The notes under the pieces were generated by a model that was not told the DNA's origin, ran no database searches, and was given only the letters and a program-made list of their open reading frames with translations. From Mortierella sp. BCC40632 (Eukaryota; Mortierellomycota; Mortierellomycetes; Mortierellales; Mortierellaceae), in NCBI GenBank assembly GCA_011634665.1, contig WAEK01000009.1:1231501-1295500 (forward strand): a DNA stretch of 64,000 bases, in the 5' to 3' direction. This document shows positions 2,150 through 64,000 of this stretch, one piece after another; the stretch's first letter is position 1, and every line of letters starts with the position of its first letter. Made by a program: the position numbers and the translations under genes.

Positions 2150-2742
2150 ATTTGACAACCGGACTGTCAAGGATTGTTGACCCTATCACCTTTGCACAGA
2201 GTTAGCGCGGAAAATTTTACGCGGGGTTAGTACCAGAATGTCACACGGAATTAGTAGGAAACAGCTCTTTTTGTTTTCAGGCCCTGGAGACTCCTATTTG
2301 GGGCTCCATCGCCTAGAACTTCGCCATGTCGTGCATGAAGTAGTGCTGCGCCCACCTTGTGCTACTTGGTGGCACGCCACCATCTGCACCTCCAATATCG
2401 TTAGTAAAAATACCTGCCAACCACTATCTTTAATAGCTCGCACCTACACTGTCGCCTTTTCTGTTGCAGTACACAATGGTTGCTGTGATCGTAGTTGGCC
2501 AAAATAACAGGTAAATTGAGTTTCCAGATTTGATTTTCTGAATATCTCAGGAGTGAGATGTGAGAGTGGAAAAAAAAGGCAGAGAGAAAGAGCACATGGG
2601 ACTGGTTGACTTTTGGGGCAATTTGTACCCGGGATCCAATCATTCTCGGGACTTAGACAAATAAGAAAAGGATGGCTTCCGTACTAACTCCATGTAAAGG
2701 CCAGGGGTTGTCAAATAATCCTTGACAACCCGGCTGTCAAAT
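2150..2742. mobile_element. Short element with terminal inverted repeats
   Basis: The ends are imperfect inverted repeats of about 26 bases. The left arm starts ATTTGACAACCGG at 2150; the right arm read on the minus strand starts ATTTGACAGCCGG at 2742. Each arm also holds its own TTGACA...TGTCAA dyad. About 590 bases, no convincing gene inside. No clear target-site duplication is visible, so this may be a MITE-like relic or another kind of dyad-rich sequence. Its right end overlaps the left border of the Crypton-like element. Confidence 0.45.
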
Positions 2743-2744
2743 AG
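2741..2744. repeat. ATAG core at left border of Crypton-like array
   Basis: Left flank CGGCTGTCAA, then ATAG, then element sequence ATTATGTATT. Same four bases occur at 8080 and 13426. Confidence 0.6.
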
Positions 2745-2771
2745 ATTATGTATTTAAAGTTTGACAAGGTT

Positions 2772-2826
2772 CGGACATGGCCCTCCCATGTTCTCTCTCT
2801 GTGTCCGAGTCATGTCCGCATGTCCG
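2772..2826. promoter_or_regulatory. Cluster of TGTCCG motifs near the left element end
   Basis: CGGACA at 2772 and TGTCCG at 2802, 2813 and 2821 lie 30-85 bases inside the left end. The right end has the same motif in TGTCCGGACA (7955) and TGTCCG (8006). Copy B repeats the pattern. Matching subterminal motifs at both ends are a common layout for binding sites of an element's own recombinase; that role is inference. They also lie upstream of both genes and could act as promoter elements. Confidence 0.4.
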
Positions 2827-3076
2827 CCAAAAAACCCAACCCAATTCTCCATTTGAATACATAATCTTCTCTGAGCCTCTCGAAATTTGATACTCAAGCC
2901 ACGAATTCGGGTACCGTTTGTCTGGCGGGAAAAGGCGTGACAAATCCATCTCTCCCCCATGACCATTTTGTCTCCATTCGATTGACCTTTCGCACTTTCC
3001 CAACCCACGCCTCTTTACTTTTTTATACCACACTCCCTCATCTCGCGCTTGCACCCCCCTTCTGCAACATCCCACC

Positions 3077-4637
3077 ATGATCACAAGCAAATTGACGCTG
3101 TTCTGTCTCGTTGATGGAGAGACAGCATCCCGGGCCTTCTCAGTTGAAATCGAGCCAACAAAGACTGTGGATTACCTCAAGAAGCTCATCAAGGCCGAGA
3201 ATCCTGACACCTTCAATGGAATTGATGCCAAGGATCTCATCCTCTGGTGTGTCTCCATACCAGTCACAGAAGAGGATGAGCACCCTGTCTTTCTTGACAG
3301 TCAGGATGAGAAGCAGAAACTCAATATTCCGACAGCACGACTTTTCAAGGTCTTTACAGGAGAGCTGTCCGACGAGACAATCCACATCGTCGTTGAACCG
3401 CCTTCGCAACCGAAAGGTAATGATTCTTTTTTTGTTTCTAGGTGTAAACCATTGCTGAAGGACCTGTCACTGATACATGACTAGAGCGCCAGTTTCGCAC
3501 ACATCCACCGCACAATGCTTCCCTAATCATTTTCTGGTTTTTTTTTATAGACTTTGAAGTGGTCATCGCACCCGATGGAGGATTTGTGGCCGAGGAGATC
3601 AGGATCCCCTGGGTAGTCAACGAGAATACTGCGACTCTGGATGACTTGTGGTCGATCATCTTTCAAAACTGGAGTTTTTGTTCTGATTACAAACAAGCCG
3701 ACTTGAGAATAGTATTAAAAAACAAGGAATCCAGGTCAACAGCCCCAACACCCCTAGGCAGCGACAAGGACGTACAAAAGTCACTTCGAGATGCCATACG
3801 GTTAAAAATACCGAAATCTCTATTGGTTTAGAGATAGCACCAAAGAGTTTTGCCAAATGGTCTTTCAAAGACGTCTGCAGATCGTTTGGCTTCTCAACGG
3901 CAGCCGATCCCGACCTTGATGTCCTCCCCCCATTTGACGATATACAACAAGCTCAGCTGAACCCGTCTCAAACAATAATTTTGGATGATCTTATCAAGGA
4001 CGTTATGATGAAGAAGGAGGTTTTGAAACTAAGTAGCGCAAATGAGGCTACTAAGTCGCTCATGGTCTTTTTGTTTTTGGCAGCAGCAACATACATATTC
4101 AAAAAAGATCTTTATCTTGCATCTCAGCAAAATCTCACCGGATCGCGAGGAAAAGGATCGGCCGACTTTTCTGTGATTTCAAGGAAAGATAAATATCTCA
4201 CTTTGGGCGTGACAGAGGTCAAAAAAAAGAGAATTTCAATCAAGGATATGCTCAGAATATTCTTCAGCTAGAGACGACTATGAAATCTAGGAAGCGCAGG
4301 CGCGAAATGGATGATGTTGATGGTGGAGAGGAAAAAGAGCCTCTGAAGAACTTTGGGATTGTCACGGATTCTGAAACGTGGGCTTTTCTTGAGTGCAGAT
4401 TACATACCAATGGGAGAATGGATTATAGGGCGAGTGTACTTCCAGACAAAGTCAACTACAACAAGTGTGACGAGGAAGATATCAAATCAATATTCAGGAA
4501 AAAAATGGTATGGCTTTGGTCACAGATGAAGAGTGAGGCTCACCGATTCCATTGCCCCCGAATACAGCTGCTCCCTTAACCCCAAGCATCGAAGCATCTC
4601 GCCAGACATCAAGAGGCCAAGACCATATCTGCCTTAA
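3077..4637 (+). CDS. Crinkler-like protein with PD-(D/E)XK nuclease domain (element copy A)
   Basis: Exon 1 is 3077-3416 and exon 2 starts at 3551 (GTAATG...TATAG intron, phase 1). The N-terminus MITSKLTLFCLVDGE followed by a ubiquitin-like stretch and LILWCVSIP is a CRN header, about 110 residues. The C-terminal half has KGSADFSV and, about 20 residues on, TEVKKENFNQGYAQN, the D...ExK...Q core seen in the nuclease domain of many fungal CRNs; FGIVTDSETWAF follows. A basic KSRKRRRE stretch could be a nuclear localisation signal. The copy B comparison gives about 473 residues. Copy A carries one-base homopolymer differences near 3807, 4070, 4095, 4223 and 4500 that break its frame; at each, copy B or neighbouring context gives a continuous frame. 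Expected role, from family knowledge: host- or self-nucleus-acting effector nuclease. Stop TAA at 4635. Confidence 0.75.
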
Positions 4638-4720
4638 TAGGTCTCTCCTCTCCCATTCTCAAAACAACCTCTTTACCAACTAATAAATGCTTGTTAATAC
4701 TTATGACTAGTCTAGTCTTT

Positions 4721-7700
4721 CTAATGCTTTTCAAGGAGCTCTTGCAAGATCGAGTTAATCGTCCGGTCTTTGTAAGTGTCGGACAGGTCATTAATCACAT
4801 CATCAGCCGGTCTTGACTCTTTTGTTGCGATACCTTCCACAAGCTGGATGAATTGTTTTCTGCGCCTAAAAGCCTCCGACGCGCCTCTGTGTGTGGCCAT
4901 GCTTTGTCGAGCTGTCTTGCCTCTGTAACAGGACCATGGAACTCGTCCCACGCCTTTCGAACAGTTAGACCTTTATCGGCAAGCATAACATAATCCGATG
5001 AGACTGACTCAGCTCGCAAGTCTTCTTGTCGCTGTTGCTGCCGTAGCTGTTGTTGATTTTGGAATGGGGAAAATCGCTGCTGTTGCTGGAGCAGTTGAAA
5101 TTGCTGTTGCTGGAACAATTGGAACTGCTGCTGCTGGATTAGATGAAACTGCTCCTGAAGTCGCTGTGAAGTTGACTCCTGACTGGGCAAGTGGGGCGCC
5201 ACATTGGAGGATGACTGCCTCTGAAAAATTGCTTCCATCTTTTGGCTCACCTCCTGTAGTGCGCGCCTCATCTCCACCATCTCACTTTGAACAACTCTTG
5301 ATAGTCCTTTCACATCATGATCCGTGGCATCTGTCCGTTTTGAAACAAGACTCTGCTGCCCAGACAAAACATTAATCGCGTCTATGATAGTACGGGCATT
5401 GACAGTAACATTGGCGCTGATGGCACAAGCTCGACTTTGGTGTGCAGTAATTGCTTGAAACAGATCGTACTGAAATTCCCGAAACAGCGAACTGTTAAAG
5501 ATGTCTGGCATTGCTTGAAGGAGCTTGTTTGTCAGAGATCGACCATCAGCACAGGGCTTCAGAAAGAGAGCAGCGTCCTGGAGAATTACCCGCCTTAGTC
5601 GGACCAAGAGCTTAAGGAAGCCAATCCGTGTGATCAGAGCATCTGTAGAGAACGCACGGGCAAGTCTCTTTGTCGCTGTCGATTTTTCCGGCTCACTCCA
5701 AAAAATATGTCCTCGCTCGATGCGACATTTGGGTCTGCGCCGAGCATCTCCCTTTTCACATTGGTCACGCCAGGACTGAGCCTTCTCTGGCATGTCAGAG
5801 TCAAAATTCGACTCGATCCATGGGAAAACCAAACGCTGAAGATCCAGTGGGGGCGTTACCAAATCGCGCTCCAGAACGTATGGCTCGTTAGGCCCAAAGT
5901 GCGCCATGCAAAAGGCTCCTCTTGTGGGATTCTTTGGTGCATAGAAATTCTCCATTTGACCCATTACCCACCGGCCAAGATGACGAATATCCTCCATGGG
6001 TAGTCCGCGCTCATATGCCTCAGTACATCCAGCATGGCGGCCTGAATGTGTCAGTTTCGAGGAATAGACTTCACACGAGTGCATAACAGCTGCTGTAGCA
6101 TCCATTTGTGTCTCACCGCTTAGAGCAGTCTCTCGCCGACGCGTTCTCTCTTCTGGTGTACCTCCGATAGTCAAGACCTTGATCTTGTACCAATTGTCAG
6201 GACATGAGAAGTTTGGGATAGGCTCCTTTTCAACCTAGTATTGGGAGTAATGATGGGCAAAAAAACTTGGTAAATTTTTTTTTTTTTTTTTTTGTTGTTG
6301 TTATTGTAATACTAGACTAGTTACCTGAAAGCGCTCCAACATATAAAAAGCGAATCCTCCAACAGTACATCGGAGAAAGTTCTTGTGCCGATATGCCGTT
6401 GCGTACAATTCAACGCCCTTCTTGTTTGTTATTCCACGGTTGATACAAAAGACGATGCCCGATGCTAATGTTGATCCAGGGGCAGGGTGTCTGGTCTGGA
6501 CGTTGAAGCAGTTGGACAGATTCAGGTTCCTAATGTCTTCGTCTCTCAGCAGCATGTGATGGCGAGCAAGCAAACACAGTCGCTCTCGAGTAAACTGAAA
6601 ACGCCTTTTGTTGTTGTATCCACGCCTGCCTTTGACTTGTCGAGGTGTAACCATCCGCCATGCAAATGACAGCATCCGCAGGAATTGTTTTTCCTTGTAT
6701 GGATCGCGGGTGGTACATGATGCCGTCCGATTCGTAGAGCCTGTAGTCATTCTATCATAGACGACAGACTCCCCGTACTTTCTTATGGCTTCTCTCAGAG
6801 GAACGTCTTTGTTGGGGTCAGGTGCGATACTTGGGCAAGACGCTGTCCGTGCTGCTTGATGTCTCCACAAATATGCGATAGCCTTTCTGGCATTTTCCAC
6901 TGATCCTGGACTCAGAGGGACAGCAATTGTACGAGCACCATCCTTGTCGACAGGGGCGCTTTGAAAAACTAAATTCAACCAAATCATGTTAGCGCCACAC
7001 TTTGTACACGGACATTTAAGCAATTATGTTGGGAGTATATTACCTTGCTCCTTCTCAGCAAGGCTTCTGATGATGCTGACCTTTGCTTTTTGCCTTGGGG
7101 GTTTTCTGACATGCACCTCCTTAGGTTTAGGCTGATCGTCAGTGGAAATTGTTGCTGTTAAAAGCTCCCCATCATCCAAGGCAAGCCGAGTATGCCAGTC
7201 TGATATATTTACTCCAGAAGGAGGGTCAAGTGACCATCGATGTCGATCTTCCTGGGGCTCCTCCAGCTCTTCATCCGAGTCATCCAGTTTTTCCTAGGTC
7301 TTCCTCCTCCTCTTCCTGATCATGGTTTTCCTCGATCCGATCCTGATCATCCTGAGTAGATGTAGCATCTAAGCCAACTGCGCCATGGTACTCTCCTGAA
7401 TATACATGCCTGGTCACTATGTGCTGAAAAACAACGGAATTGAAGTACTCTAGCATTCGTGCAGCATCAACAGTGCAGTCGCCATCATACTTTCCTTCAC
7501 AAAATATCTATGTCCATGCCGATAAAAAGCAATGAGTGTTAAAGTCAAGGGAAACAGAACACAATGCATCAACTGTTCAGTAAAAGTACCTTCCATCTCC
7601 TGAGGTGCACTTTGTAGTTCTTTATTGTGCCGGACGCCTGGTTGTCTTCCAAAATCGCGGTGAGGACAGTATTTGCAGAGTCCTTCCGCGCCTGAGCTAA

Positions 7701-7877
7701 CTCATCAGGAGGCAGAGAATGAGATTGATTGATCTCATTCTCCCCCTCTCCATTTTGCTCACGTCGTTTGCGCCTGGGGGCTTTTTTCTGCTGGAAAAGG
7801 TCTGTAACTGAAGTCTGAGAGGGGGGCGCTCGGGCACGCTTCTTCGGAGCCGTAGAGGACTCTGCTTGCACCGACAT
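4721..7877 (-). CDS. Crypton tyrosine recombinase with GCR1_C-like DNA-binding end (copy A)
   Basis: Four exons on minus: 7877-7590, about 7507-7044, about 6970-6326, about 6236-4721; the third intron holds a long T run. Roughly 950-980 residues. Order: basic N-terminus with a PIP-box-like QTSVTDLF; acidic Glu/Asp stretch; core domain with first catalytic Arg region LLRDEDIRNLNL (near 6540); HxxR in THSGRHAGCTEAYERG; LGRW; nucleophile Tyr in ENFY (near 5945); Gln-rich stretch (5020-5160); then GLTVRKAWDEF...RRRKQF, which looks like the GCR1_C domain found at the end of fungal Crypton recombinases. All catalytic positions I can look for (R, HxxR, W, Y) are present. Small homopolymer indels against copy B disturb the frame near 7295 and at about 4880. 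Confidence 0.8.
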
Positions 7878-7954
7878 TGAGAGGAAAAAAGGAAATGGGC
7901 GAAGCTGATGCTGGCACTTGGGTGCATTTCAGGGACATTAGAGCCAATGTGAGG

Positions 7955-8011
7955 TGTCCGGACATTGGTGGGCCAAGCCTCCAATTCAAGCCACAAATGG
8001 ACTCATGTCCG
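7955..8011. promoter_or_regulatory. TGTCCGGACA palindrome and TGTCCG motif near the right element end
   Basis: Perfect ten-base palindrome TGTCCGGACA at 7955-7964 and TGTCCG at 8006-8011, 70-125 bases inside the right border and just upstream of the recombinase start codon. Same motif as in the left end. Could be recombinase binding sites or an operator for the recombinase gene. Confidence 0.4.
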
Positions 8012-8079
8012 GCGGAGATGGGCGGAGAAAGACTGACCAGTAACATCAAAAAAGAGAGAATTTCGATCGATAGTCTGTT

Positions 8080-8083
8080 ATAG
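8080..8083. repeat. ATAG core at junction of the two element copies
   Basis: Left side ...AGTCTGTT is the right end of copy A; right side ATTATGTATT is the left end of copy B. Confidence 0.6.
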
Positions 8084-8416
8084 ATTATGTATTTAAAGTT
8101 TGACAAGGTTCGGACATGGCCCTCCCATGTTCTCTCTCTGTGTCCGAGTCATGTCCGCATGTCCGCCAAAAAACCCAACCCAATTCTCCATTTGAATACA
8201 TAATCTTCTCTGAGCCTCTCGAAATTTTGATACTCAAGCCACGAATTCGGGTACCGTTTGTCTGGCGGGAAAAGGCGTGACAAATCCATCTCTCCCCATG
8301 ACCCCATTTTGTCTCCATCTGATTGACCTTTCGCACTTTTCCCAACCCACGCCTCTTTATTTTTTTATACCACACTCCCTCATCTCGCGCTTGCACCCCT
8401 TCTGCAACATCCCACC

Positions 8417-9972
8417 ATGATCACCAGCAAATTGACGCTGTTCTGTCTCGTTGATGGAGAGACAGCATCCCGGGCCTTCTCAGTTGAAATCGAGCCAACA
8501 AAGACTGTGGATTACCTCAAGAAGCTCATCAAGGCCGAGAATCCTGACACCTTCAATGGAATTGATGCCAAGGATCTCATCCTCTGGTGTGTCTCCATAC
8601 CAGTCACAGAAGAGGATGAGCACCCTGTCTTTCTTGACAGTCAGGATGAGAAGCAGAAACTCAATATTCCGACAGCACGACTTTTCAAGGTCTTTACAGG
8701 AGAGCTGTCCGACGAGACAATCCACATCGTCGTTGAACCGCCTTCGCAACCGAAAGGTAATGATTCTTTTTTGTTTCTAGGTGTAAACCATTGCTGAAGG
8801 ACCTGTCACTGATACATGACTAGAGCGCCAGTTTCGCACACATCCACCGCACAATGCTTCCCTAATCATTTTCTGGTTTTTTTTTATAGACTTTGAAGTG
8901 GTCATCGCACCCGATGGAGGATTTGTGGCCGAGGAGATCAGGATCCCCTGGGTAGTCAACGAGAATACTGCGACTCTGGATGACTTGTGGTCGATCATCT
9001 TTCAAAACTGGAGTTTTTGTTCTGATTACAAACAAGCCGACTTGAGAATAGTATTAAAAAACAAGGAATCCAGGTCAACAGCCCCAACACCCCTAGGCAG
9101 CGACAAGGACGTACAAAAGTCACTTCGAGATGCCATACGGTTAAAAAATACCGAAATCTCTATTGGTTTAGAGATAGCACCAAAGAGTTTTGCCAAATGG
9201 TCTTTCAAAGACGTCTGCAGATCGTTTGGCTTCTCAACGGCAGCCGATCCCGACCTTGATGTCCTCCCCCCATTTGACGATATACAACAAGCTCAGCTGA
9301 ACCCGTCTCAAACAATAATTTTGGATGATCTTATCAAGGACGTTATGATGAAGAAGGAGGTTTTGAAACTAAGTAGCGCAAATGAGGCTACTAAGTCGCT
9401 CATGGTCTTTTTTGTTTTTTGGCAGCAGCAACATACATATTCAAAAAGATCTTTATCTTGCATCTCAGCAAAATCTCACCGGATCGCGAGGAAAAGGATC
9501 GGCCGACTTTTCTGTGATTTCAAGGAAAGATAAATATCTCACTTTGGGCGTGACAGAGGTCAAAAAAGAGAATTTCAATCAAGGATATGCTCAGAATATT
9601 CTTCAGCTAGAGACGACTATGAAATCTAGGAAGCGCAGGCGCGAAATGGATGATGTTGATGGTGGAGAGGAAAAAGAGCCTCTGAAGAACTTTGGGATTG
9701 TCACGGATTCTGAAACGTGGGCTTTTCTTGAGTGCAGATTACATACCAATGGGAGAATGGATTATAGGGCGAGTGTACTTCCAGACAAAGTCAACTACAA
9801 CAAGTGTGACGAGGAAGATATCAAATCAATATTCAGGAAAATGGTATGGCTTTGGTCACAGATGAAGAGTGAGGCTCACCGTTCCATTGCCCCCGAATAC
9901 AGCTGCTCCCTTAACCCCAAGCATCGAAGCATCTCGCCAGACATCAAGAGGCCAAGACCATATCTGCCTTAA
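8417..9972 (+). CDS. Crinkler-like protein with PD-(D/E)XK nuclease domain (element copy B)
   Basis: Exon 1 8417-8756, intron 8757-8889, exon 2 8890-9972. Same protein as at 3077: CRN header, linker, then a nuclease domain with GSADFSV (about residue 313) and TEVKK (about residue 336). Copy B reads through the 3807-equivalent position (six A) and gives the continuous nuclease frame ENFNQGYAQN. It carries an extra T or two near 9410-9420, which shifts frame once; with that resolved the product is about 473 residues. Stop faces the recombinase stop 83 bases away. No signal peptide is seen, which is usual for fungal CRNs. Confidence 0.75.
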
Positions 9973-10055
9973 TAGGTCTCTCCTCTCCCATTCTCAAAAC
10001 AACCTCTTTACCAACTAATAAATGCTTGTTAATACTTATGACTAGTCTAGTCTTT

Positions 10056-11605
10056 CTAATGCTTTTCAAGGAGCTCTTGCAAGATCGAGTTAATCGTCCG
10101 GTCTTTGTAAGTGTCGGACAGGTCATTAATCACATCATCAGCCGGTCTTGACTCTTTTTGTTGCGATACCTTCCACAAGCTGGATGAATTGTTTTCTGCG
10201 CCTAAAAAGCCTCCGACGCGCCTCTGTGTGTGGCCATGCTTTGTCGAGCTGTCTTGCCTCTGTAACAGGACCATGGAACTCGTCCCACGCCTTTCGAACA
10301 GTTAGACCTTTATCGGCAAGCATAACATAATCCGATGAGACTGACTCAGCTCGCAAGTCTTCTTGTCGCTGTTGCTGCCGTAGCTGTTGTTGATTTTGGA
10401 ATGGGGAAAATCGCTGCTGTTGCTGGAGCAGTTGAAATTGCTGTTGCTGGAACAATTGGAACTGCTGCTGCTGGATTAGATGAAACTGCTCCTGAAGTCG
10501 CTGTGAAGTTGACTCCTGACTGGGCAAGTGGGGCGCCACATTGGAGGATGACTGCCTCTGAAAAATTGCTTCCATCTTTTGGCTCACCTCCTGTAGTGCG
10601 CGCCTCATCTCCACCATCTCACTTTGAACAACTCTTGATAGTCCTTTCACATCATGATCCGTGGCATCTGTCCGTTTTGAAACAAGACTCTGCTGCCCAG
10701 ACAAAACATTAATCGCGTCTATGATAGTACGGGCATTGACAGTAACATTGGCGCTGATGGCACAAGCTCGACTTTGGTGTGCAGTAATTGCTTGAAACAG
10801 ATCGTACTGAAATTCCCGAAACAGCGAACTGTTAAAGATGTCTGGCATTGCTTGAAGGAGCTTGTTTGTCAGAGATCGACCATCAGCACAGGGCTTCAGA
10901 AAGAGAGCAGCGTCCTGGAGAATTACCCGCCTTAGTCGGACCAAGAGCTTAAGGAAGCCAATCCGTGTGATCAGAGCATCTGTAGAGAACGCACGGGCAA
11001 GTCTCTTTGTCGCTGTCGATTTTTCCGGCTCACTCCAAAATATGTCCTCGCTCGATGCGACATTTGGGTCTGCGCCGAGCATCTCCTTTTCACATTGGTC
11101 ACGCCAGGACTGAGCCTTCTCTGGCATGTCAGAGTCAAAATTCGACTCGATCCATGGGAAAACCAAACGCTGAAGATCCAGTGGGGGCGTTACCAAATCG
11201 CGCTCCAGAACGTATGGCTCGTTAGGCCCAAAGTGCGCCATGCAAAAGGCTCCTCTTGTGGGATTCTTTGGTGCATAGAAATTCTCCATTTGACCCATTA
11301 CCCACCGGCCAAGATGACGAATATCCTCCATGGGTAGTCCGCGCTCATATGCCTCAGTACATCCAGCATGGCGGCCTGAATGTGTCAGTTTCGAGGAATA
11401 GACTTCACACGAGTGCATAACAGCTGCTGTAGCATCCATTTGTGTCTCACCGCTTAGAGCAGTCTCTCGCCGACGCGTTCTCTCTTCTGGTGTACCTCCG
11501 ATAGTCAAGACCTTGATCTTGTACCAATTGTCAGGACATGAGAAGTTTGGGATAGGCTCCTTTTCAACCTAGTATTGGGAGTAATGATGGGCAAAAAAAC
11601 TTGGT

Positions 11606-11636
<31 letters not shown>

Positions 11637-13223
11637 GTTGTTGTTATTGTAATACTAGACTAGTTACCTGAAAGCGCTCCAACATATAAAAGCGAATCCT
11701 CCAACAGTACATCGGAGAAAGTTCTTGTGCCGATATGCCGTTGCGTACAATTCAACGCCCTTCTTGTTTGTTATTCCACGGTTGATACAAAAGACGATGC
11801 CCGATGCTAATGTTGATCCAGGGGCAGGGTGTCTGGTCTGGACGTTGAAGCAGTTGGACAGATTCAGGTTCCTAATGTCTTCGTCTCTCAGCAGCATGTG
11901 ATGGCGAGCAAGCAAACACAGTCGCTCTCGAGTAAACTGAAAACGCCTTTTTTTGTTGTTGTATCCACGCCTGCCTTTGACTTGTCGAGGTGTAACCATC
12001 CGCCATGCAAATGACAGCATCCGCAGGAATTGTTTTTCCTTGTATGGATCGCGGGTGGGTACATGATGCCGTCCGATTCGTAGAGCCTGTAGTCATTCTA
12101 TCATAGACGACAGACTCCCCGTACTTTCTTATGGCTTCTCTCAGAGGAACGTCTTTGTTGGGGTCAGGTGCGATACTTGGGCAAGACGCTGTCCGTGCTG
12201 CTTGATGTCTCCACAAATATGCGATAGCCTTTCTGGCATTTTCCACTGATCCTGGACTCAGAGGGACAGCAATTGTACGAGCACCATCCTTGTCGACAGG
12301 GGCGCTTTGAAAACTAAATTCAACCAAATCATGTTAGCGCCACACTTTGTACACGGACATTTAAGCAATTATGTTGGGAGTATATTACCTTGCTCCTTCT
12401 CAGCAAGGCTTCTGATGATGCTGACCTTTGCTTTTGCCTTTGGGGTTTTTCTGACATGCACCTCCTTAGGTTTAGGCTGATCGTCAGTGGAAATTGTTGC
12501 TGTTAAAAGCTCCCCATCATCCAAGGCAAGCCGAGTATGCCAGTCTGATATATTTACTCCAGAAGGAGGGTCAAGTGACCATCGATGTCGATCTTCCTGG
12601 GGCTCCTCCAGCTCTTCATCCGAGTCATCCAGTTTTCCTAGGTCTTCCTCCTCCTCTTCCTGATCATGGTTTTCCTCGATCCGATCCTGATCATCCTGAG
12701 TAGATGTAGCATCTAAGCCAACTGCGCCATGGTACTCTCCTGAATATACATGCCTGGTCACTATGTGCTGAAAAACAACGGAATTGAAGTACTCTAGCAT
12801 TCGTGCAGCATCAACAGTGCAGTCGCCATCATACTTTCCTTCACAAAATATCTATGTCCATGCCGATAAAAAGCAATGAGTGTTAAAGTCAAGGGAAACA
12901 GAAACAATCATCAACTGTTCAGTAAAAGTACCTTCCATCTCCTGAGGTGCACTTTGTAGTTCTTTATTGTGCCGGACGCCTGGTTGTCTTCCAAAATCGC
13001 GGTGAGGACAGTATTTGCAGAGTCCTTCCGCGCCTGAGCTAACTCATCAGGAGGCAGAGAATGAGAGATTGATTGATCTCATTCTCCCCCCTCTCCATTT
13101 TGCTCACGTCGTTTGCGCCTGGGGGCTTTTTTTTCTGCTGGAAAAGGTCTGTAACTGAAGTCTGAGAGGGGGCGCTCGGGCACGCTTCTTCGGAGCCGTA
13201 GAGGACTCTGCTTGCACCGACAT
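10056..13223 (-). CDS. Crypton tyrosine recombinase with GCR1_C-like DNA-binding end (copy B)
   Basis: Same four-exon gene as copy A, start ATG at 13223-13221. The HxxR motif, LGRW and ENFY are all intact, as are the Gln-rich stretch and the GLTVRKAW...RRRK end. Copy B has no extra base in the acidic stretch (12590-12660), so that exon reads openly. Near 10150 a run of T longer by one than in copy A shifts the last 35 codons; copy A shows the likely true C-terminus ending at 10056. The third intron's T run is longer than in copy A. Family role: cuts and rejoins DNA at the element borders by a phosphotyrosine intermediate. Confidence 0.8.
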
Positions 13224-13425
13224 TGAGAGGAAAAAAAAAAATGGGCGAAGCTGATGCTGGCACTTGGGTGCATTCAGGGACAATAGGAGCCAATGTGAGG
13301 TGTCCGGACATTGGTGGGCCAAGCCTCCAATTCAAGCCACAAATGGACTCATGTCCGGCGGAGATGGGCGGAGAAAGACTGACCAGTAACATCAAAAAAG
13401 AGAGAATTTCGATCGATAGTCTGTT

Positions 13426-13429
13426 ATAG
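13426..13429. repeat. ATAG core at right border of Crypton-like array
   Basis: Preceded by GTCTGTT (element end) and followed by TATCTTGCG (flank). Confidence 0.6.
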
Positions 13430-13939
13430 TATCTTGCGTTTAGTTACTCATTTCCATGTATGTGTCACTGTGAATCATGGCCTGTGGTTTATTCTGCTGG
13501 TTCATTTGTAAACTAATCTAACGCTAAAAACCACAGCTTCCAGAAGCTTGAAATGTCACCTTTCACCTTGCGGACAGGGTTGGTTGACATACTAAGTCAA
13601 GGTGCTACTTAAGGTAAGCAATCAGAGCGCTACTGCATAAGCTAGAAAAAGGGCCGTTGACCTGGGCTTAATTCAGATGGTTTACCGACTTTGTTGTCTC
13701 CAATGTGGGTTGGGTTAGTCATGCAACAGACATCAATATTATCCAGGTAGCTCTATAAAATAAAAATGACGTACGAACTATTCTCCATTTCAGATGTTTT
13801 TGACCTCAGATTGCGCTGCTTATTTGAAGATTAACACCCCCCTTCGCAGTAACCCCGTGCAACGGACCGTGCATAATCCTCGAAAATAAGAATGGAAAAA
13901 ACAAAAACAGATGAAATGGAGAATAGCTGTTAAAGTCAG
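13430..13939. other. Intergenic sequence between element array and next gene
   Basis: About 510 bases with no supported gene. A/T-rich, short ORFs only. It contains the right flank of the Crypton-like array and the 3' side of the gene ending at 13940. Confidence 0.5.
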
Positions 13940-16915: not shown

Positions 16916-19908
16916 ATGACCGACAAATACTTGACTTTGTTCTGCCTTGTTGATGGAGAGGGTACCTCCAAAGCATTCCCTGTCTAGATTTCTCCTGAAG
17001 ACTCGATTGGTGATCTCAAGGAGCACGTCAAGACCAAGCAGAGTCCTGACTTTGACGACATTGTTGCCAACAGCCTCACTCTCTGGCGTACATCAGTTCC
17101 TGAAGATGGCCAGTCCACTCCTGTCACGATTGACGCCCTTCATGACAAAACAGAGCTGAGCAACCCGCGGACACGGCTCTCAAAGTTGTTTCCTGAGTGT
17201 CCTGATGATGAAACCTACATCATTGTCCAGCGGCCTCCTCCTCAAGGTAATGACACGCATCCGCTGATTGATCCTGCTAGCATGAGCTTGTTCACCCCGC
17301 TAACCCTATTCTTTCTCATATCTAGTGCATGCGCTCGTCCCCGCTCGATCACCAGCACCGCCGTCGGAAGCACAAGTGACCGAAGCATGTAAGAGAAAAG
17401 CAGGATCATTCGAGTTCTGGTTTACTCATTCTTGATGGAATGGAATGCGAACATACTGCTTGCCTGCTAGTCCAAATACGCATAGAAAGGAGTTCTTCCA
17501 GCCAGGAACTGTTATTTCAGACTTTCTTCGCATGTTCGTGGAAGGCGAGATCTCTCTTCCTGAGGCAGACTGCTGTGTCAAAGGATAGCCAAAGGCATGG
17601 TTACGATCAAGCTCCTTTGCCCAAAAGTCTGCTCGACCTGCTCTGTACCTACTGCACCCAACGCAACCACATCAGACAACATCAACAACGACATCTCCAT
17701 CAGTGGCAGCCCTAGAAACGATCAGCAACCTCCAGAACAACGACTTGATCACTTTCTTCGGCGTGAGTGGCTGTGGGAAGACTCGAGCTGTTGTTGAAAT
17801 GCTTGCACAGACATGGGGATTCTATCTGAACAGCAGTCAAGATGACCGAGGCTCAAAGGATGTCGCCACTTTGTTCGAATCAGCAATGCAAATGCCGGAG
17901 AGATATCTGTCGTCGGACAGAGTACAGAATGGGCTCAATGTCCAGGCGATCACGGGCTGTCTCCTCTTTGCACGCCTTCTCGTCCTACAATACTGTCTGA
18001 GTCTCGGCCACCGTGACAAATTTTCTTGTGACCGCTGGATGCTACTCCAAGTGTGTCCAGGAGCGTTTGACCCCGCTGTACCGGACGTTTTTGACAGCGT
18101 TTTCCGGGCCCTACTTGGTGGCTATCACAACCAGATGCTTGCGATTTCTCTTCCCAACTTGAAGTGCCTACTGGAGGCTCGATTCCGCTTGGTTCAAGGC
18201 CTGCTATCTTCGTACACCTCTGACTCTCCATCTAGCAAATTTCTCATTGTTCTCGATGAAGCCCAGACGCTAAGCAATCATGGGAAAGATTTCTTCGTGT
18301 CTCACGTGGATTCCAGCGACTTAAGGTCAATTCTATCCCCTATCATCCACGGATTGAGGAATATTTCAAACGACACTCAGAGCTACTGTGTGGTGACATG
18401 TGGTACTGGGATTGGCGCAGATGAACAGGACGTCCTGCAGGACTCAGGCGGCACTGGAAGCAGTTGGGAGCAGGTCAACCGCCGTATTGTCGACTTTCCG
18501 GGCTGGGAAACCGTGGACCAAGTAGCAATGTACATCAACAATATCGGTGGTCTGTTGTGTGGGGACGACAAAGCCAGGCTTCACACATTGATACCGGAGG
18601 CAGCCGTTCATGAATTGTTTTTCAGGCTTCGAGGTCGTTTCCGTCCAATCGTCTCGACAATCGAGGAGATTATCGCCAAAGGATGCCCGTCATACTGGAA
18701 GGAGGCTATCGAACAAAGAGTCCACTCACTCGTGTGCTATCCTGAGCGTTTCCCAGTGCATGGGAAGCTTTGCTCTGATATCAAGAGGATGCTTAAAAAG
18801 GTCGCCAAGGATCCAGCCAGGTTCAAGGATGCCGTCGACATAATGCAGGTTCTCAGACAGACTGTTGTCTCTCGAGCCTCGCTGGGACTCCCCTGGAGCC
18901 TGCGAGGAGAAGAGCCAATCTTGGTCGAGAGTGCTTTCGCCCGTCTCCGCGCTACTGCCGACCAGGCCGCAGCAGGGAAGACGATCAGCACGATCATCGA
19001 CGAGCCATTCGTGTTCCAGGCTGCCTACAACTTTATCCGGAATGAAGACGAGGGATTCTACAATTACTTCAGAGAACAGTACCGAGACTTGCAGGATCCT
19101 CCTTCAGAAGGGAAGATCTTTGAGCGCCATGCACCCTTAGATTTGATCTACACTTTCCATCAGAAACAGCTCAAGCAGGAGTTGTTCTCGATCCCCAAAC
19201 CCGCCGTACACCTGAAGCCACCCAAAATTCCCATTCCCTCTTTTGAGCCCGTCATCTTCCCTCGGCATTTGTTTGACTATCCAGCAGCGATCGTCGGATG
19301 GGAAGGCTATGAGTGGGGAGATTGGTATAAAAAGCACTGACGATGCGAGATTTTTAGAGGCGCACTACAGGCATGACTCGAGAAAGGATGGTTGCGTGGT
19401 GCCACCATTTTACTACCCTGAGCTGTCTCCTTCAGGACCCGACATCGTTTTTATTTTGCGAATCAACAATGAGCTCTACCCCGTGTTTGTGCAGACGAAA
19501 CTTCTCAAGGACATTTATCCAGGAGATGTGGAGGAGGCTCGACTAACTGTCCATCACGGTAGGATCAAGGACTATCTGTCGAACTTGGACGAGTACTGCC
19601 CAGGTGGAAAGTATTTGAGCTTTATCTACGTTCATCCCACAATCAATAAGACTCTACGAGAAGGCTGGGATAGGGATAAACTTTGGGACATGGAGCCTGA
19701 GACTGGAACTGATCGTAGTCGTGCTTCCACAGATGTTGACGAACCATTGATGCAGCTTCTCATAATCATTGACGGGGGCAATATGCGGGATTTTAGGCCT
19801 GAAGGAGTGGTCGATTTGCTTGACAGCGTGAAGGGAACCAAGCGAGTCAGTGACCAAGCTGGCTCGTCTGACAGGGCGGAAAAGAAACCCATGTTGGAGA
19901 AGCAGTAG
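16916..19908 (+). pseudogene. Crinkler (CRN): header, P-loop NTPase and PD-(D/E)XK-like nuclease, disrupted
   Basis: Header exon 16916-17246 (MTDKYLTLFCLVDGE; LTLWRTSVP), Pro/Ala-rich exon 17326-17388, then the main exon to 19908. Domains: header 1-110; NTPase with Walker A GVSGCGKT near 17765 and Walker B FLIVLDEAQ near 18245; C-terminal nuclease-like domain with GPDIVFIL and PVFVQTK near 19440-19500. Breaks: TAG at 16985 where the related header in the Crypton cargo has Glu; TAG just before PKAWLR near 17588; and loss of bases near 19330 and 19350 compared with 1310-1340, which throws the nuclease domain out of frame. Two in-frame stops are harder to blame on homopolymer error than single indels, so a decayed gene is likely. 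The exon 2-3 junction does not resolve cleanly. An upstream in-frame ATG exists at 16901. Confidence 0.75.
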
Positions 19909-20515
19909 TGAAAACGAATAAACGAATTTTGCAAGCTCTTTAGTAATACTAGCTGTTCTATCTCACATGAACACACGGATGCGACAATAGGATGCCTTGA
20001 ATTAGACAGCTATAGCCGTACTGTGATCGAGCTTCTGTCCCAATGAAGCTCGCCGCAAGAACACAACATCCGTATGCCATATGTTCCCTTAAGCTGACGC
20101 CAGCCCAGATTCCGAGGACCGACACAAGTGGCATGCGCTACATCCACCTTGCACATGTCCATTGTACATACACCAACTTGCTCTACCTATCCAATCGCAC
20201 TAACATAGTCCATTCTCCTACGCCATCTCGCTCATTGACTCCACTTCCTGGTTACCATTTGGATGGTTCTCGTCCCAGTTCGCCGCTGTTTGATATGAGT
20301 TCACTCGAACTTTCTTGTTTTTGTCTTTTTTTTTTGCTCCTGTATACTGACTCCGAGAAGCTCAATTTCACGACGCAAGTTTCCTTGGATTGATACTGTG
20401 CTTGAAGTTGTGAGAGAGAGGAAAGTACCTGAAACCACAAAAACTACACATTTTGGACGCACAACTCAGGTGAAGAGAGCGACATACTTATGCAGTAAAT
20501 TGATATCGGTCCATG

Positions 20516-22977: not shown

Positions 22978-25900
22978 GAGAGTCCTTATGTTCCAACCCA
23001 TCCCCAAGCCATCCGCCACCCTCCCTCCAAAATTTGACTTTTTCTAAGTAAAATCAATGGGTATCAGATAGCCAATCAGCGTTCACCTAACGCATAGTCA
23101 AAGGTGAAGGTACTATTCCAGCAGTTGTCTCTAAGTGAAGTACCCTTGGGAGTGGATTTTAGATGTTGAGTCCTAAAGAGATATTGTAGAGATGATTTTT
23201 TTACACCCGTCTATGTAAATTTTTCAGGTGGAGAGAAAAGTATGGATCTCCCCTGGACAAAAAACTGGGGTTGAGGGACACGTCTAGCAAAAAAAATAGT
23301 CTATTGACTAGAAATCAAAAGTGCACTTTTTGTTCAATCAATTATTGATATTCAGAACTTCTCTTTTTTCTTCATACTTCATTAACAAAAGTATTAGAGT
23401 AGAGTCTAGAGAACTCATAAATACCATTATCTCTGAGATTGCTTAGCTGGTTGAGGAGAAAATGCGATTTGAAGCCGGTGATGGACGTCAAAAATCCTTA
23501 CAAGTCAAGATACTACCATAGAGTAGCTGCTGTTTCGCCCAAAATTGCCTACTTACTCGCCCCGGACATTAGCTAGACGCATTTTCTATCCTTCCAGTTA
23601 ATAACTCGTGCCTTTAGATAGGAATTGGCCAAGATCTGGGGGACTGAATAAAGAAAAAATGATGTCAATCATCATTCTTTAAAGTCGCCTAAGAAAGGTA
23701 TTGGGACTTCTTAGGCTGAGTTAGCGTTAAGAGACGAGGGAACAGAGGGTTTGAGATGCAGTCGCTCCTACGCAGACGTTTATTGATTACAGTAATCTAG
23801 TATTTCTGTCGCTGCCTCTTGAACTTCAGCTGAGTATGCTCTTCGACTAAGCGGACCAGTCTTGCTAGAGTCTCATCTATCGCTTCTTCACCTGCCTGGG
23901 GAACATCTTTATCTAGGAGGGGCAAAAGGGTGCCAAGACGCTGGAAATTGATGGATCGAGAATTTGACCTAGGCTCCGGCTCTGGATCGTTGATATGGTC
24001 CATATATACTCCAGGTAATCGTTATGAGCTGCATCCAACAATGAGCGTTTGTTGTCCGGCCTGTCAACTTGATCTTGAGAATAAATGTCATCGCATCGTA
24101 ACTGTAGCTCTGGTATTTGAATCATGACGAGGGCTATATGCTTGCAGGAACTGGCATTCATACGGAAATATGGACATGTACAGCTGATGATCTCGCCAAA
24201 CGCCAGTCTACTAAAATCGATCTGAATGTCATAAGTCGTCCCTTCTGCCGTAAAAAGACTCCACTCGAAGCAATGTATCATTGATCTGCGTCATTGGTTC
24301 ACCAACAAATCCATAAGACTCTCTTGTTTGAATGTGTTTTTCGGCCACAATTCTGAAGCGCGCCTCAATCTTCTGCGCAGGGTTCATGCGACCTGATTTC
24401 ATGATACCACGGATACACTTTTGCTGAAAGTGGGGGACAGCCATGAAAGCCAGGATGTAAATGACGGTGTCTGGGCGCCGCTGATGCCGATCTCGGAAGA
24501 AATGTCGCTTGAGGATGTTGTGCCAGGACTCAATAAAGTTGTTTGTGTCTATGGACGAGTACGAAACTTCCTGTCGATAGCATAGCATCCAAGGGCTCTG
24601 AATCCGGGCGACATCCTCATCTTGCTCTGATCCAAAATATCGCTTGTTCAGGTAGTGTATTAGATCGGTCTGTTCTTTCCATTTTTCTCGGTACTCTTGA
24701 ATACGCAACATGGCTTTTGAGTGAGTAGGCTCTCTCTGGATCATGCGAAGCTCGGCAACCACCTATCACAGAGCAAGGTATGTTAGTGGCCAATAGCACT
24801 AGGAAAGTACCAAAAGGCATCTTAGCGACGCCTACCTCATCCCTCAGAGCTTTTCTCTGCTCCACAGGAAGGTGGGAAATGCCACTCAAACGAGTTCTAG
24901 CCTCGCGTTCCCAAATACGATACACATGCCAAGCGCAGAAGAAAATGGGGACGTGATTTTCTGCGAAAGCCGTCTTGATTGCCAGAATCTCAACGTTGCC
25001 TTGATCCGTTATCACAGCGTTCGGCTTGTATGTGTACAAGCTGCCAGGCGAGGAAAAGATTTCAGTCATCTTGCTTCGAAGGGCCCTTAGCCATCCAACG
25101 AGGGTAGAGTTCTCTGTTGTCTTTGTCAAGAGGAATGCCACTGGAACCCCGAATCCTGTACTCGTATTCTTGACGACGAGGGTGAAAAGATTGGTCTTTT
25201 GCCTATGCACACAGAAGTACCGCATATAAGTGCTCTGGCTCAAGAAGGAGAGCTAGCTGACAGTCAAAAAGAATCGCACGTATGCACAGTACCCGAAAAT
25301 GTCATGAGTCCCATCAAAGCAGATGGTTCTTCCATGCGCCTTCAACTGTGTCATTTGCCACATTGTGGCGAACCCAAAGTAGAGGCCACTGGTTCGGTCC
25401 TCCTTGTCGTAGTAGGTGAACCCGCCGTCATGCTCAAGCTCCTCCATCCACTTCATTGATGATAGCACGGGGTCTTTGTCTTTTTCCTCATCTTTTTGGC
25501 CATTACGGAATGCCAGATGTTGTAGACATCGTCGTATGTAATAAAGTCGTCGCGAGAGAAGCGGTCTTTTGCTCGCATGACCTGCATAAACTTGTCATGC
25601 TCCATTGTGAGTTGATTCATCACCATAGAGATTGTTGAGCCCCCCAGAATAAGCTTCCTAATAGTCTCCTTGATAGCAGCAGACTTTTGGCGAGTTCCCA
25701 GGCCAGTAAAGCTTCCCACGTCGTGATTATGGCCGAAACGATAGGCAATCTGGCATACAGTTTGACTTGTCCCATCTGTTCCAGGTACCTTTTGAGTAAT
25801 GACCCGAATTTTTGATTGACATCCTTTCCTAATGCTCTGTTTGCGGACTCTAGGCTTCCCAGACTTTCCTCCGAGCTTCCTGCCTTTGATGACTCGCTTT

Positions 25901-26877
25901 TGGCCGGCACACTGGCATTGCAGGTACGACCGCGTGTCTCCTTTCTTCTCCTCACTGACATACTTGTAAGCACTCTTCACCTGGACAAAGTTGGTAGATA
26001 TCTCGGCCTGATGTTGTTGTAGCCATTCCCCGTACTTGTCGGCGGCTATCGTGAAGTGAGCTACCTTTGTCTGTAACATGAAGTCCTTCTTGTTGAATGA
26101 AATCATCCTTTAACAATTTTTCCTGAATCTTCTTTTAGCGCAAACTCGTGCAAGTCTTCAGATATTTGTTTTTGCATTCGCTGAAGAATTAGCGGAAGCA
26201 GTTGTTTTTTATTAGGTCTTTTCAGTGTACGGTCGTATTGAAACGAGGGCCAAGGTAGTCGAGTATTACGCTTACTCACCTCAATCGGCGTCCCTTCTGC
26301 CATAGCTATCTTGGGCGCAATGTCGAAGATGGAATCAATCGAGCCTGTATCAGCCTCGACCTCACATATTTCATCTTCAGCGGGATCGGCCTCGCGTTCC
26401 TCAGAACTGCCCATGTCTTTTTCTTCCGGACTAATGCTACATTCATCGGCAGGGTCAGGGCTTTCGGTGCTATTAGAATCATCATGAAAGTCTAGACTTG
26501 ATTCGCTCTCGAAAAGGGCGGCCTAAAGGGAGGAGAGAAATATGGATTACCAGACCGATGAAGGTGTATCATCCTCTTCATTCAATCCAAGGCAAAGGCA
26601 AGGGAGGCTTACCAGCTTCCGCAGACTACTAACGACAAGCATCTCGATCTCAGCAGCTTCCTTTTCGTTGTTTATTCGAACAGTGTCTTCAATGGTGTGG
26701 GGCATTGTCTCGGCTGGCAGCTCGCTTTGGATGCGAGACTTGACCATTCTTATGGGACGCGAGGGAAGTGATGGAAGGAGTGATTGTGAGTATGGGTGGG
26801 CGATGGACTTTTGTCCTTGAAGTGACGTAACAGAATTTAAAAAATGCCGACCTTGTGGGGTTGGAACATAAGGACAC
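22978..26877 (-). mobile_element. Mutator-like (MULE) DNA transposon, complete copy
   Basis: The element starts GAGAGTCCTTATGTTCCAAC at 22978; its other end, read on minus, starts GTGTCCTTATGTTCCAACC. The terminal inverted repeat is about 17-18 bases. An 11-base direct repeat TCAAATTGAGA flanks it at 22967-22977 and 26878-26888, a typical MULE target-site duplication. Length 3,900 bases. The left border is confirmed by the second copy at 60412, which shares the sequence only from GAGAGTCC on. About 800 non-coding bases separate the left end from the transposase stop. Confidence 0.88.
23797..26747 (-). CDS. MULE transposase with N-terminal zinc-cluster and C-terminal SWIM finger (frame disturbed)
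   Basis: Exon 1 26747-26613 (MVKSRIQSELP...), exon 2 from 26522, further introns near 25200-25260 and 24765-24835. Order: acidic N-terminus; WRKY/GCM1-like zinc-binding region with CQCAGQKR, GCQSKI and FGHNHD (25700-25920); DDE transposase core with CFDGTHDIFG (about 25300), VITDQGN followed by FFCAWHVYRIWE (about 24930-25010) and NNFIESWHNILKRHF (about 24510-24545), the expected D, D, E positions; SWIM finger CTCPYF...CKHIALVM (about 24120-24165). The stop is at 23797. Relative to the copy at 61224-63950 this copy has several one-base indels that shift frame (for example near 25480 and 26120). Cut-and-paste transposition of the element is the family role. Confidence 0.75.
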
Positions 26878-60411: not shown

Positions 60412-63400
60412 GAGAGTCCTTATGTTCCAACCCATCCCCAAGCCATCCGCCACCCTCCCTCCAAAATTTGACTTTTTCTAAGTAAAATCAATGGGTATCA
60501 GATAGCCAATCAGCGTTCACCTAACGCATAGTCAAAGGTGAAGGTACTATTCCAGCAGTTGTCTCTAAGTGAAGTACCCTTGGGAGTGGATTTTAGATGT
60601 TGAGTCCTAAAGAGATATTGTAGAGATGATTTTTTACACCCGTCTATGTAAATTTTTCAGGTGGAGAGAAAAGTATGGATCTCCCTGGACAAAAAAACTG
60701 GGGTTGAGGGACACGTCTAGCAAAATAGTCTATTGACTAGAAATCAAAAGTGCACTTTTTGTTCAATCAATTATTGATATTCAGAACTTCTTTTTTTTCT
60801 TCATACTTCATTAACAAAAGTATTAGAGTAGAGTCTAGAGAACTCATAAATACCATTATCTCTGAGATTGCTTAGCTGGTTGAGGAGAAAATGCGATTTG
60901 AAGCCGGTGATGGACGTCAAAAATCCTTACAAGTCAAGATACTACCATAGAGTAGCTGCTGTTTCGCCCAAAATTGCCTACTTACTCGCCCCGGACATTA
61001 GCTAGACGCATTTTCTATCCTTCCAGTTAATAACTCGTGCCTTTAGATAGAATTGGCCAAGATCTGGGGACTGAAAAAAAAAAAATGATGTCAATCATCA
61101 TTCTTTTAAAGTCGCCTAAGAAAGGTATTGGGACTTCTTAGGCTGAGTTAGCGTTAAGAGACGAGGGAACAGAGGGTTTGAGATGCAGTCGCTCCTACGC
61201 AGACGTTTATTGATTACAGTAATCTAGTATTTCTGTCGCTGCCTCTTGAACTTCAGCTGAGTATGCTCTTCGACTAAGCGGACCAGTCTTGCTAGAGTCT
61301 CATCTATCGCTTCTTCACCTGCCTGGGGAACATCTTTATCTAGGAGGGGCAAAAGGGTGCCAAGACGCTGGAAATTGATGGATCGAGAATTTGACCTAGG
61401 CTCCGGCTCTGGATCGTTGATATGGTCCATATACTCCAGGTAATCGTTATGAGCTGCATCCAACAATGAGCGTTTGTTGTCCGGCCTGTCAACTTGATCT
61501 TGAGAATAAATGTCATCGCATCGTAACTGTAGCTCTGGTATTTGAATCATGACGAGGGCTATATGCTTGCAGGAACTGGCATTCATACGGAAATATGGAC
61601 ATGTACAGCTGATGATCTCGCCAAACGCCAGTCTACTAAAATCGATCTGAATGTCATAAGTCGTCCCTTCTGCCGTAAAAGACTCCACTCGAAGCAATGT
61701 ATCATTGATCTGCGTCATTGGTTCACCAACAAATCCATAAGACTCTCTTGTTTGAATGTGTTTTCGGCCACAATTCTGAAGCGCGCCTCAATCTTCTGCG
61801 CAGGGTTCATGCGACCTGATTTCATGATACCACGGATACACTTTTGCTGAAAGTGGGGGACAGCCATGAAAGCCAGGATGTAAATGACGGTGTCTGGGCG
61901 CCGCTGATGCCGATCTCGGAAGAAATGTCGCTTGAGGATGTTGTGCCAGGACTCAATAAAGTTGTTTGTGTCTATGGACGAGTACGAAACTTCCTGTCGA
62001 TAGCATAGCATCCAAGGGCTCTGAATCCGGGCGACATCCTCATCTTGCTCTGATCCAAAATATCGCTTGTTCAGGTAGTGTATTAGATCGGTCTGTTCTT
62101 TCCATTTTTCTCGGTACTCTTGAATACGCAACATGGCTTTTTGAGTGAGTAGGCTCTCTCTGGATCATGCGAAGCTCGGCAACCACCTATCACAGAGCAA
62201 GGTATGTTAGTGGCCAATAGCACTAGGAAAGTACCAAAAGGCATCTTAGCGACGCCTACCTCATCCCTCAGAGCTTTTCTCTGCTCCACAGGAAGGTGGG
62301 AAATGCCACTCAAACGAGTTCTAGCCTCGCGTTCCCAAATACGATACACATGCCAAGCGCAGAAGAAAATGGGGACGTGATTTTCTGCGAAAGCCGTCTT
62401 GATTGCCAGAATCTCAACGTTGCCTTGATCCGTTATCACAGCGTTCGGCTTGTATGTGTACAAGCTGCCAGGCGAGGAAAAGATTTCAGTCATCTTGCTT
62501 CGAAGGGCCCTTAGCCATCCAACGAGGGGTAGAGTTTCTCTGTTGTCTTTGTCAAGAGGAATGCCACTGGAACCCCGAATCCTGTACTCGTATTCTTGAC
62601 GACGAGGGTGAAAAGATTGGTCTTTTGCCTATGCACACAGAAGTACCGCATATAAGTGCTCTGGCTCAAGAAGGAGAGCTAGCTGACAGTCAAAGAATCG
62701 CACGTATGCACAGTACCCGAAAATGTCATGAGTCCCATCAAAGCAGATGGTTCTTCCATGCGCCTTCAACTGTGTCATTTGCCACATTGTGGCGAACCCA
62801 AAGTAGAGGCCACTGGTTCGGTCCTCCTTGTCGTAGTAGGTGAACCCGCCGTCATGCTCAAGCTCCTCCATCCACTTCATTGATGATAGCACGGGGTCTT
62901 TGTCTTTCCTCATCTTTTTGGCCATTACGGAATGCCAGATGTTGTAGACATCGTCGTATGTAATAAAGTCGTCGCGAGAGAAGCGGTCTTTTGCTCGCAT
63001 GACCTGCATAAACTTGTCATGCTCCATTGTGAGTTGATTCATCACCATAGAGATTGTTGAGCCCCCCAGAATAAGCTTCCTAATAGTCTCCTTGATAGCA
63101 GCAGACTTTTGGCGAGTTCCCAGGCCAGTAAAGCTTCCCACGTCGTGATTATGGCCGAAACGATAGGCAATCTGGCATACAGTTTGACTTGTCCCATCTG
63201 TTCCAGGTACCTTTTGAGTAATGACCCGAATTTTTGATTGACATCCTTTCCTAATGCTCTGTTTGCGGACTCTAGGCTTCCCAGACTTTCCTCCGAGCTT
63301 CCTGCCTTTGATGACTCGCTTTTGGCCGGCACACTGGCATTGCAGGTACGACCGCGTGTCTCCTTTCTTCTCCTCACTGACATACTTGTAGCACTCTTCA

Positions 63401-64000
63401 CCTGGACAAAGTTGGTAGATATCTCGGCCTGATGTTGTTGTAGCCATTCCCCGTACTTGTCGGCGGCTATCGTGAAGTGAGCTACCTTGTCTGTAACATG
63501 AAGTCCTTCTTGTTGAATGAAATCATCCTTTAACAATTTTTCCTGAATCTTCTTTAGCGCAAACTCGTGCAAGTCTTCAGATATTTGTTTTGCATTCGCT
63601 GAAGAATTAGCGGAAGCAGTTGTTTTTATTAGGTCTTTTCAGTGTACGGTCGTATTGAAACGAGGGCCAAGGTAGTCGAGTATTACGCTTACTCACCTCA
63701 ATCGGCGTCCCTTCTGCCATAGCTATCTTGGGCGCAATGTCGAAGATGGAATCAATCGAGCCTGTATCAGCCTCGACCTCACATATTTCATCTTCAGCGG
63801 GATCGGCCTCGCGTTCCTCAGAACTGCCCATGTCTTTTTCTTCCGGACTAATGCTACATTCATCGGCAGGGTCAGGGCTTTCGGTGCTATTAGAATCATC
63901 ATGAAAGTCTAGACTTGATTCGCTCTCGAAAAGGGCGGCCTAAAAGGGAGAGAAATATGGATTACCAGACCGATGAAGGTGTATCATCATCCTCTTCATT
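60412..64000 (-). mobile_element. Mutator-like (MULE) transposon, second copy, runs off the window
   Basis: Starts GAGAGTCCTTATGTTCCAAC at 60412, with flank CCACCCCGTC different from the first copy, and is colinear with 22978-26565 to the window end. Nearly all differences are homopolymer length changes. The right end and target-site duplication lie beyond 64000. Confidence 0.88.
61224..63953 (-). CDS. MULE transposase, second copy (first exon outside window)
   Basis: Same protein as at 23797-26747: zinc-cluster region (CQCAGQKR, GCQSKI, FGHNHD), DDE core (CFDGTHDIFG, VITDQGN with FFCAWHVYRIWE, NNFIESWHNILKRHF) and SWIM finger. This copy reads openly through the 25480-equivalent (MRKDKDPVLSSMKWMEE) and the 26120-equivalent (ALKKIQEKLLKDD), where copy 1 is shifted, but is itself shifted near 61765, 62145, 62525 and 63390. 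Taken together the two copies imply an intact source element of roughly 780-800 codons. The start exon corresponds to 26613-26747 and is not in the window. Confidence 0.75.

Follow-up and report, generated by a model that had tools for sequence, protein, structure and literature searches.

Organization of the tandem units

The stretch analysed here (the window) covers 64,000 nucleotides of the Mortierella sp. BCC40632 genome, and corresponds to positions 1231501-1295500 of contig C9 in an assembly of 49.9 Mb and 62 contigs. The labels C3, C5, C8, and so on refer to contigs of this same genome. Near its left end, the window contains two near-identical units of 5.34 kb, arranged head to tail with 98.9% identity. 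Each unit contains a Crinkler (CRN) gene on the plus strand, which is convergent with a Crypton-type tyrosine recombinase gene on the minus strand. Both genes start inside the unit; the CRN ATG of unit 1 is at 3077, and the unit starts at 2741. The repeated unit and the containment of both genes in it, as described in a first-pass annotation of the sequence, were thus confirmed. The features are as follows:

2741..8079, plus strand: unit 1, whole element copy, 5339 bases
2741..2747, plus strand: left coupling or crossover sequence ATAGATT (from comparison of six copies); the left end ATGTATTTAAAGTTTGAC runs from 2748
3077..3484, plus strand: unit 1 CRN header exon (PF20147, E 6e-26)
3481..4576, plus strand: unit 1 CRN nuclease part, from open frames and homology; in more than one frame, interrupted
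4795..7928, minus strand: unit 1 tyrosine recombinase gene in several pieces, with the catalytic exon at 4795-6174, an upstream piece at 6301-7023, and the N-terminal piece at 7572-7928 (exon joints approximate)
8069..8086, plus strand: unit 1/unit 2 junction, the right end GATAGTCTGTT followed by ATAGATT
8080..13425, plus strand: unit 2, whole element copy, 5346 bases
8417..8797, plus strand: unit 2 CRN header exon (PF20147, E 4.9e-26)
8898..9972, plus strand: unit 2 CRN PD-(D/E)XK nuclease part (ADFSV ... GVTEVK), two overlapping frames, fold from a homologue
10138..11508, minus strand: unit 2 recombinase catalytic exon (HSGRH, W, and Y; NDC10_II; weak GCR1_C at the end)
11664..12800, minus strand: unit 2 recombinase upstream pieces
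13415..13432, plus strand: right end of unit 2, GATAGTCTGTT, and the right coupling sequence ATAGTAT

The assignment of a CRN-header/PD-(D/E)XK gene is supported by the header match in both units, the D and ExK residues of the nuclease part, and the nuclease fold of a homologue. In the plain Foldseek ranking of this homologue, ubiquitin-like folds were on top; the nuclease fold was found on re-examining the same list. In 35 CRN homologues, none of the Pfam models fitted the nuclease part convincingly. The recombinase matched NDC10_II (PF16787, E 8.7e-9), and the alignment of the catalytic exon showed HxxR, W, and Y, and visual inspection placed the first R in the upstream exon; the earlier identification of a tyrosine recombinase with these four residues therefore stands. 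The GCR1_C-like end is weak: the match at the end of the recombinase scores 16.1 bits, below the cut-off of 23. The top-scoring named relatives of the recombinase belong to the Mortierellaceae, the first being from Actinomortierella ambigua (68% over 59% of the query). Rfam gave no matches in the whole window at gathering scores.

Dispersed copies and joint insertion

A DNA search of the genome identified four additional complete copies (C32, C14, C5, and C23) with 98.7-99.1% identity; relative to unit 1, the identity is 98.8-99.1%. All four hold both genes, and the suspected recurrence of the CRN and recombinase genes together between the same ends was found in all six copies. The left end ATGTATTTAAAGTTTGAC is present in each of them, preceded by ATAGATT, TTAGATT, or GAAGAAT; the right end GATAGTCTGTT is likewise present in each, followed by ATAGATT, ATAGTAT, ATAAATT, or ATAAGTT. 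Apart from this coupling sequence of a few bases, the unit bounds are identical at four unrelated left flanks and five unrelated right flanks. No terminal inverted repeat was visible in a search for repeats of at least 40 bases and a comparison of the termini by eye. Scattered short repeats aside, the flanks are dissimilar between copies, with the exception of the C32 and C23 copies, which have 8 kb of left flank in common (98.4% identity) and right flanks without a match. This left-only match suggests that the host recombined inside the element or next to it, and that one of the two copies was probably moved in this way.

The C5 copy sits in a repeat, and the joint of its flanks is spanned, without the element, by alignments to 12 other genomic places (73-96%). 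Among four retrieved paralogues of the C5 site, those on C25, C27, and C30 are uninterrupted, and the one on C18 matches the left side plus 3 bases only. In two alignments, the uninterrupted paralogues read GTTCA or GTCCA, followed by ATAAGTTATTGAG. The left joint of the C5 copy is GTTCA-ATAGATT and its right joint CTGTT-ATAAGTT; ATA is common to both sides, with no duplication past 3 bp. Since the whole unit with both genes interrupts the repeat, the CRN gene lies inside the mobile unit, and the comparison indicates that the CRN and recombinase genes went in together at this site. This joint insertion, together with the same ends in six of six copies, supports the proposal that the two genes move as one unit. 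The ATAG end repeat proposed earlier holds for the window (ATAG/ATAG), but not for the C5 site, where only ATA is common.

Two other structures were also observed. A stretch of 2.19 kb with 103-bp identical inverted ends (C32:8639-10829) directly borders the C32 copy on its left side and has no equivalent in the C23 counterpart; five more places hold both of its ends, spaced about 2 kb apart. A decayed relative was found at C13:204987-205932, with 52 bp of the unit left end at 92%. A CRN-nuclease remnant (about 63%) adjoins this left end, and no recombinase was evident within the 9.5 kb retrieved.

Origin of the tandem

Variant sharing among the six copies was judged without an outgroup. Units 1 and 2 have four variants in common (alignment columns 53, 1637, 3755, and 5414) that none of the remaining copies carries, which suggests that the tandem arose from one duplication or dimer. 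By raw count, unit 1 is closer to the C5 copy (12 differing positions) than to unit 2 (23 differing positions in the six-way alignment, plus 31 indels, 22 in homopolymers); a few columns join unit 1 to other copies, and most of them lie in a single hard-to-align stretch. The first-pass annotation had described the element as integrated twice in tandem; the common variants favour a duplication or dimer instead, without proving it.

Two copies of another CRN-type gene (1-1975 and 18020-19994 of the window, 97.4% identical) lie on either side of the tandem. Their headers are at C9:1230405 and C9:1248431, and a P-loop-like stretch was read by eye.

Pairing of CRN and recombinase genes across the genome

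Convergent CRN/recombinase pairs with diverged genes were found near C25:169-172k, C8:1785-1788k, and C24:215-218k, and decayed pairs at C3:508k and C30:177k. A CRN nuclease of this class thus lies within 1 kb of five of the 40 listed non-unit recombinase loci. The list is hand-compiled, includes several fragments, and is a lower bound (at least 40); a decayed neighbour at C4:2958.7k-2959.2k was excluded from the pair count. In all five pairs, the CRN gene lies on the 3' side of the recombinase, in convergent orientation, and belongs to the same nuclease class. Random placement on the same contigs, with the lengths of seven contigs assumed, gave a mean of 0.066 expected pairs, and five pairs were not reached in any of 20,000 trials. 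The paired recombinases of different loci are about 22-40% alike. No close match to the unit ends was found at the C25, C8, C24, and C17 loci.

The listed CRN-header loci (n = 105) were divided into 15 that adjoin a nuclease match of this class and 90 others. A recombinase lies within 2.5 kb of 8 of the 15 (6 of them the unit copies) and of none of the 90. Recombinase linkage is confined to this one CRN nuclease class. The earlier suggestion that CRN genes spread with the recombinase may hold for this class, but finds no support in the others.

The window also holds a 3.6 kb repeat (22978-26582 and 60412-64000, 99% identity), whose second copy has an open frame that, in our own reading, is like a MULE-type transposase. 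A similar frame adjoins the C8 CRN gene.

CRN-less relatives and phylogenetic analysis

Three 4.8 kb elements, at C11:703k, C4:1511k, and C6:407k, are about 99% identical, carry AAAGTG at both ends, and have no CRN match. These three loci were retrieved, and four further such loci are known from search matches. The family is a recently spread recombinase-only element, a canonical CryptonF by its parts. The recombinase region of the C8 pair shares 89-90% DNA identity with these elements, and the similarity ends 2 bases past the recombinase frame, at the start of the CRN tail. At the CRN-less relative C9:2024k, TAGTCTGTTATAGA, the right end of the unit, was found beyond the recombinase start (one match, five loci scanned). 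Recombinase copies that exclude the CRN were named in the first-pass annotation as evidence against joint movement. This condition applies only in part: relatives of the recombinase that lack the CRN exist, but they belong to other families and are not copies of the unit. Their nucleotide identity is at most about 90%, and that is to the C8 type.

Phylogenetic trees were reconstructed for 24 recombinases and 25 CRN proteins, with long branches in both. In the CRN tree, an unpaired C12 gene joins the unit and C25 in one clade (100/100), and an unpaired C4 gene is grouped with C8 (96/52); C24 is unplaced. The deepest split is the same in both trees, with the unit and C25 on one side and C8 and C24 on the other.

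The ratio of nonsynonymous to synonymous substitution (dN/dS) was estimated for seven CRN pairs, in which paired and unpaired genes are mixed. By NG86, six pairs gave 0.22-0.42 and the seventh was saturated; YN00 gave 0.19-0.73. For the C8/C11 recombinases, the values were 0.19 (NG86) and 0.30 (YN00), and three other recombinase pairs were saturated. These values fit past purifying selection, less clearly for the CRN of C25 versus C12.

The same CRN nuclease class is present in Kalaharituber (Ascomycota) and Syncephalis. Such patchy occurrence could be due to horizontal transfer. A search for CRN homologues in IMG/VR gave 45 pattern matches, none of which was confirmed.

Interpretation and alternative explanations

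The unit is very probably a CryptonF-type mobile element with two convergent genes, encoding a tyrosine recombinase and a CRN-header PD-(D/E)XK nuclease. By analogy with its family, the recombinase would excise the unit as a circle, and would join the circle to short ATA(R)-like sites. The joint of such a circle would read GATAGTCTGTT-ATAGATT-ATGTATTT, and the unit 1/unit 2 junction has such a sequence. Because the convergent pair recurs with widely diverged recombinases and the nuclease residues are conserved, we infer that several Crypton lineages have the CRN nuclease as a resident second gene, and that it is no chance passenger. The nuclease might be targeted to the nucleus, where it might serve the element against rival elements or against other nuclei in shared hyphae; it might alternatively help with the insertion of the element. 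On this view, unpaired CRN genes of the class would either have survived from elements that died or have been the source of the element CRNs. A broader reading is offered tentatively, at somewhat below an even chance: early-diverging fungi might have an old class of two-gene mobile elements, whose Crypton recombinase and CRN-type nuclease act together and which are both the natural home and the source of nuclease-type Crinklers there, with stand-alone genes of this class left behind or domesticated.

Several observations weigh against this interpretation. Empty counterparts, sought as paralogues within the genome following the first-pass annotation, were found for only one of the five insertion sites, that on C5; no unoccupied paralogues of the window, C14, C32, and C23 insertions were found. 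The nuclease part is open throughout only in the C5 copy of the six, and over half of the indels between unit copies lie in homopolymers, so that the present coding of the CRN gene is uncertain. At C25, C8, and C24, the gene pair is observed while the element ends were not located, so that joint movement is not implied there. The C25 recombinase has HSGQ, in which Q replaces the R of HxxR. Among the recombinase and CRN matches from other species, no neighbouring locus tags were seen by eye. This CRN nuclease class is missing within 1 kb of 35 of the 40 listed non-unit recombinase loci. In the recombinase tree, each of the four paired types belongs to a separate lineage that also holds CRN-less relatives, and well-supported branches force at least four changes of the paired/unpaired label. 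The two trees and the CRN-less relatives suggest that the CRN was lost, gained, or exchanged more than once; repeated gain of CRN by Crypton lineages is possible.

These four lineages might also be explained by passenger capture, in which separate Crypton lineages took up a neighbouring CRN gene at the 3' end, and the nuclease has no role in the element. The abrupt end of the C8 similarity to a CRN-less element at the CRN tail, and the unpaired CRN genes of the same class, are in line with such capture. However, the same class, side, and orientation recur in all five non-unit pairs, and no other CRN class was found near a recombinase. The common deepest split of the two trees also argues against capture, although such agreement is expected by chance in 1 of 3 cases. 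On balance, passenger capture seems rather unlikely.

Two further alternatives concern the copies themselves. The common left flank of the C32 and C23 copies and the sister-like units 1 and 2 might mean that the unit is a segmental or subtelomeric duplication, which contains a dead Crypton and was dispersed by recombination of the host. This is highly improbable given the constant bounds at unrelated flanks, the empty-site paralogues of C5, and the recurrence of the unit right end at the diverged relative C9:2024k. The tandem might instead be a single copy assembled twice; many of the indels are in homopolymers, and the tandem is read from the assembled sequence. The 23 differing positions and 31 indels between the units, even with 22 in homopolymers, make such an artefact hardly credible. 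The two-gene element is in any case independent of the tandem, because four single copies exist elsewhere.

Comparison with known systems

Starship elements are fungal tyrosine-recombinase elements with cargo genes, and are defined by a DUF3435 captain recombinase. The unit also combines a tyrosine recombinase with a cargo gene in a fungus. It differs in having two genes in 5.3 kb and a host in the Mortierellaceae, and its recombinase exons gave no DUF3435 match among the Pfam results at E up to 1.

The unit is closer to the CryptonF elements of fungi and oomycetes, as outlined in the relevant sections of Kojima and Jurka (2011; PMC3212892). Such elements have 4- to 6-bp terminal direct repeats, with no terminal inverted repeats and no long terminal repeats. 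The tyrosine recombinase is alike, no terminal inverted repeats were seen in the unit, and the C5 insertion shows a short site without further target duplication. The likeness is ambiguous for the GCR1_C end, which is weak here, and for the short direct end repeats, which are 3-4 bp in the unit and 6 bp in most fungal elements. The unit has most of the CryptonF features tested, and its new trait is the CRN-header PD-(D/E)XK nuclease as a second gene. The first-pass annotation had stated that Cryptons carry only the recombinase; the same sections report CryptonF and CryptonS elements encoding a C48 peptidase, so a second enzyme in a Crypton has precedent. Both types encode a further enzyme, a peptidase in the published elements and a CRN nuclease here. 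In our searches of the openly licensed papers of PubMed Central, no paper was found that places a Crinkler with a Crypton or tyrosine recombinase as one element.

The origin and spread of Crinkler effectors are open questions; on the basis of domain history, they have been proposed to derive from transposons. An element that still holds a CRN gene between its own ends, with the pair present in several divergent recombinase lineages, makes the question of origin testable, and may represent a route of spread for one class of Crinkler genes. In its account of Zhang et al. (2016), a review (PMC5289972) describes a proposed link between CRN genes and transposons, with the CRN genes of one oomycete in helitron-rich regions. 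The nuclease-type Crinkler effectors treated there resemble the unit CRN in their ubiquitin-like header and restriction-endonuclease-like domain. The link there is by location and domain history, whereas the CRN gene here lies inside a tyrosine-recombinase element.
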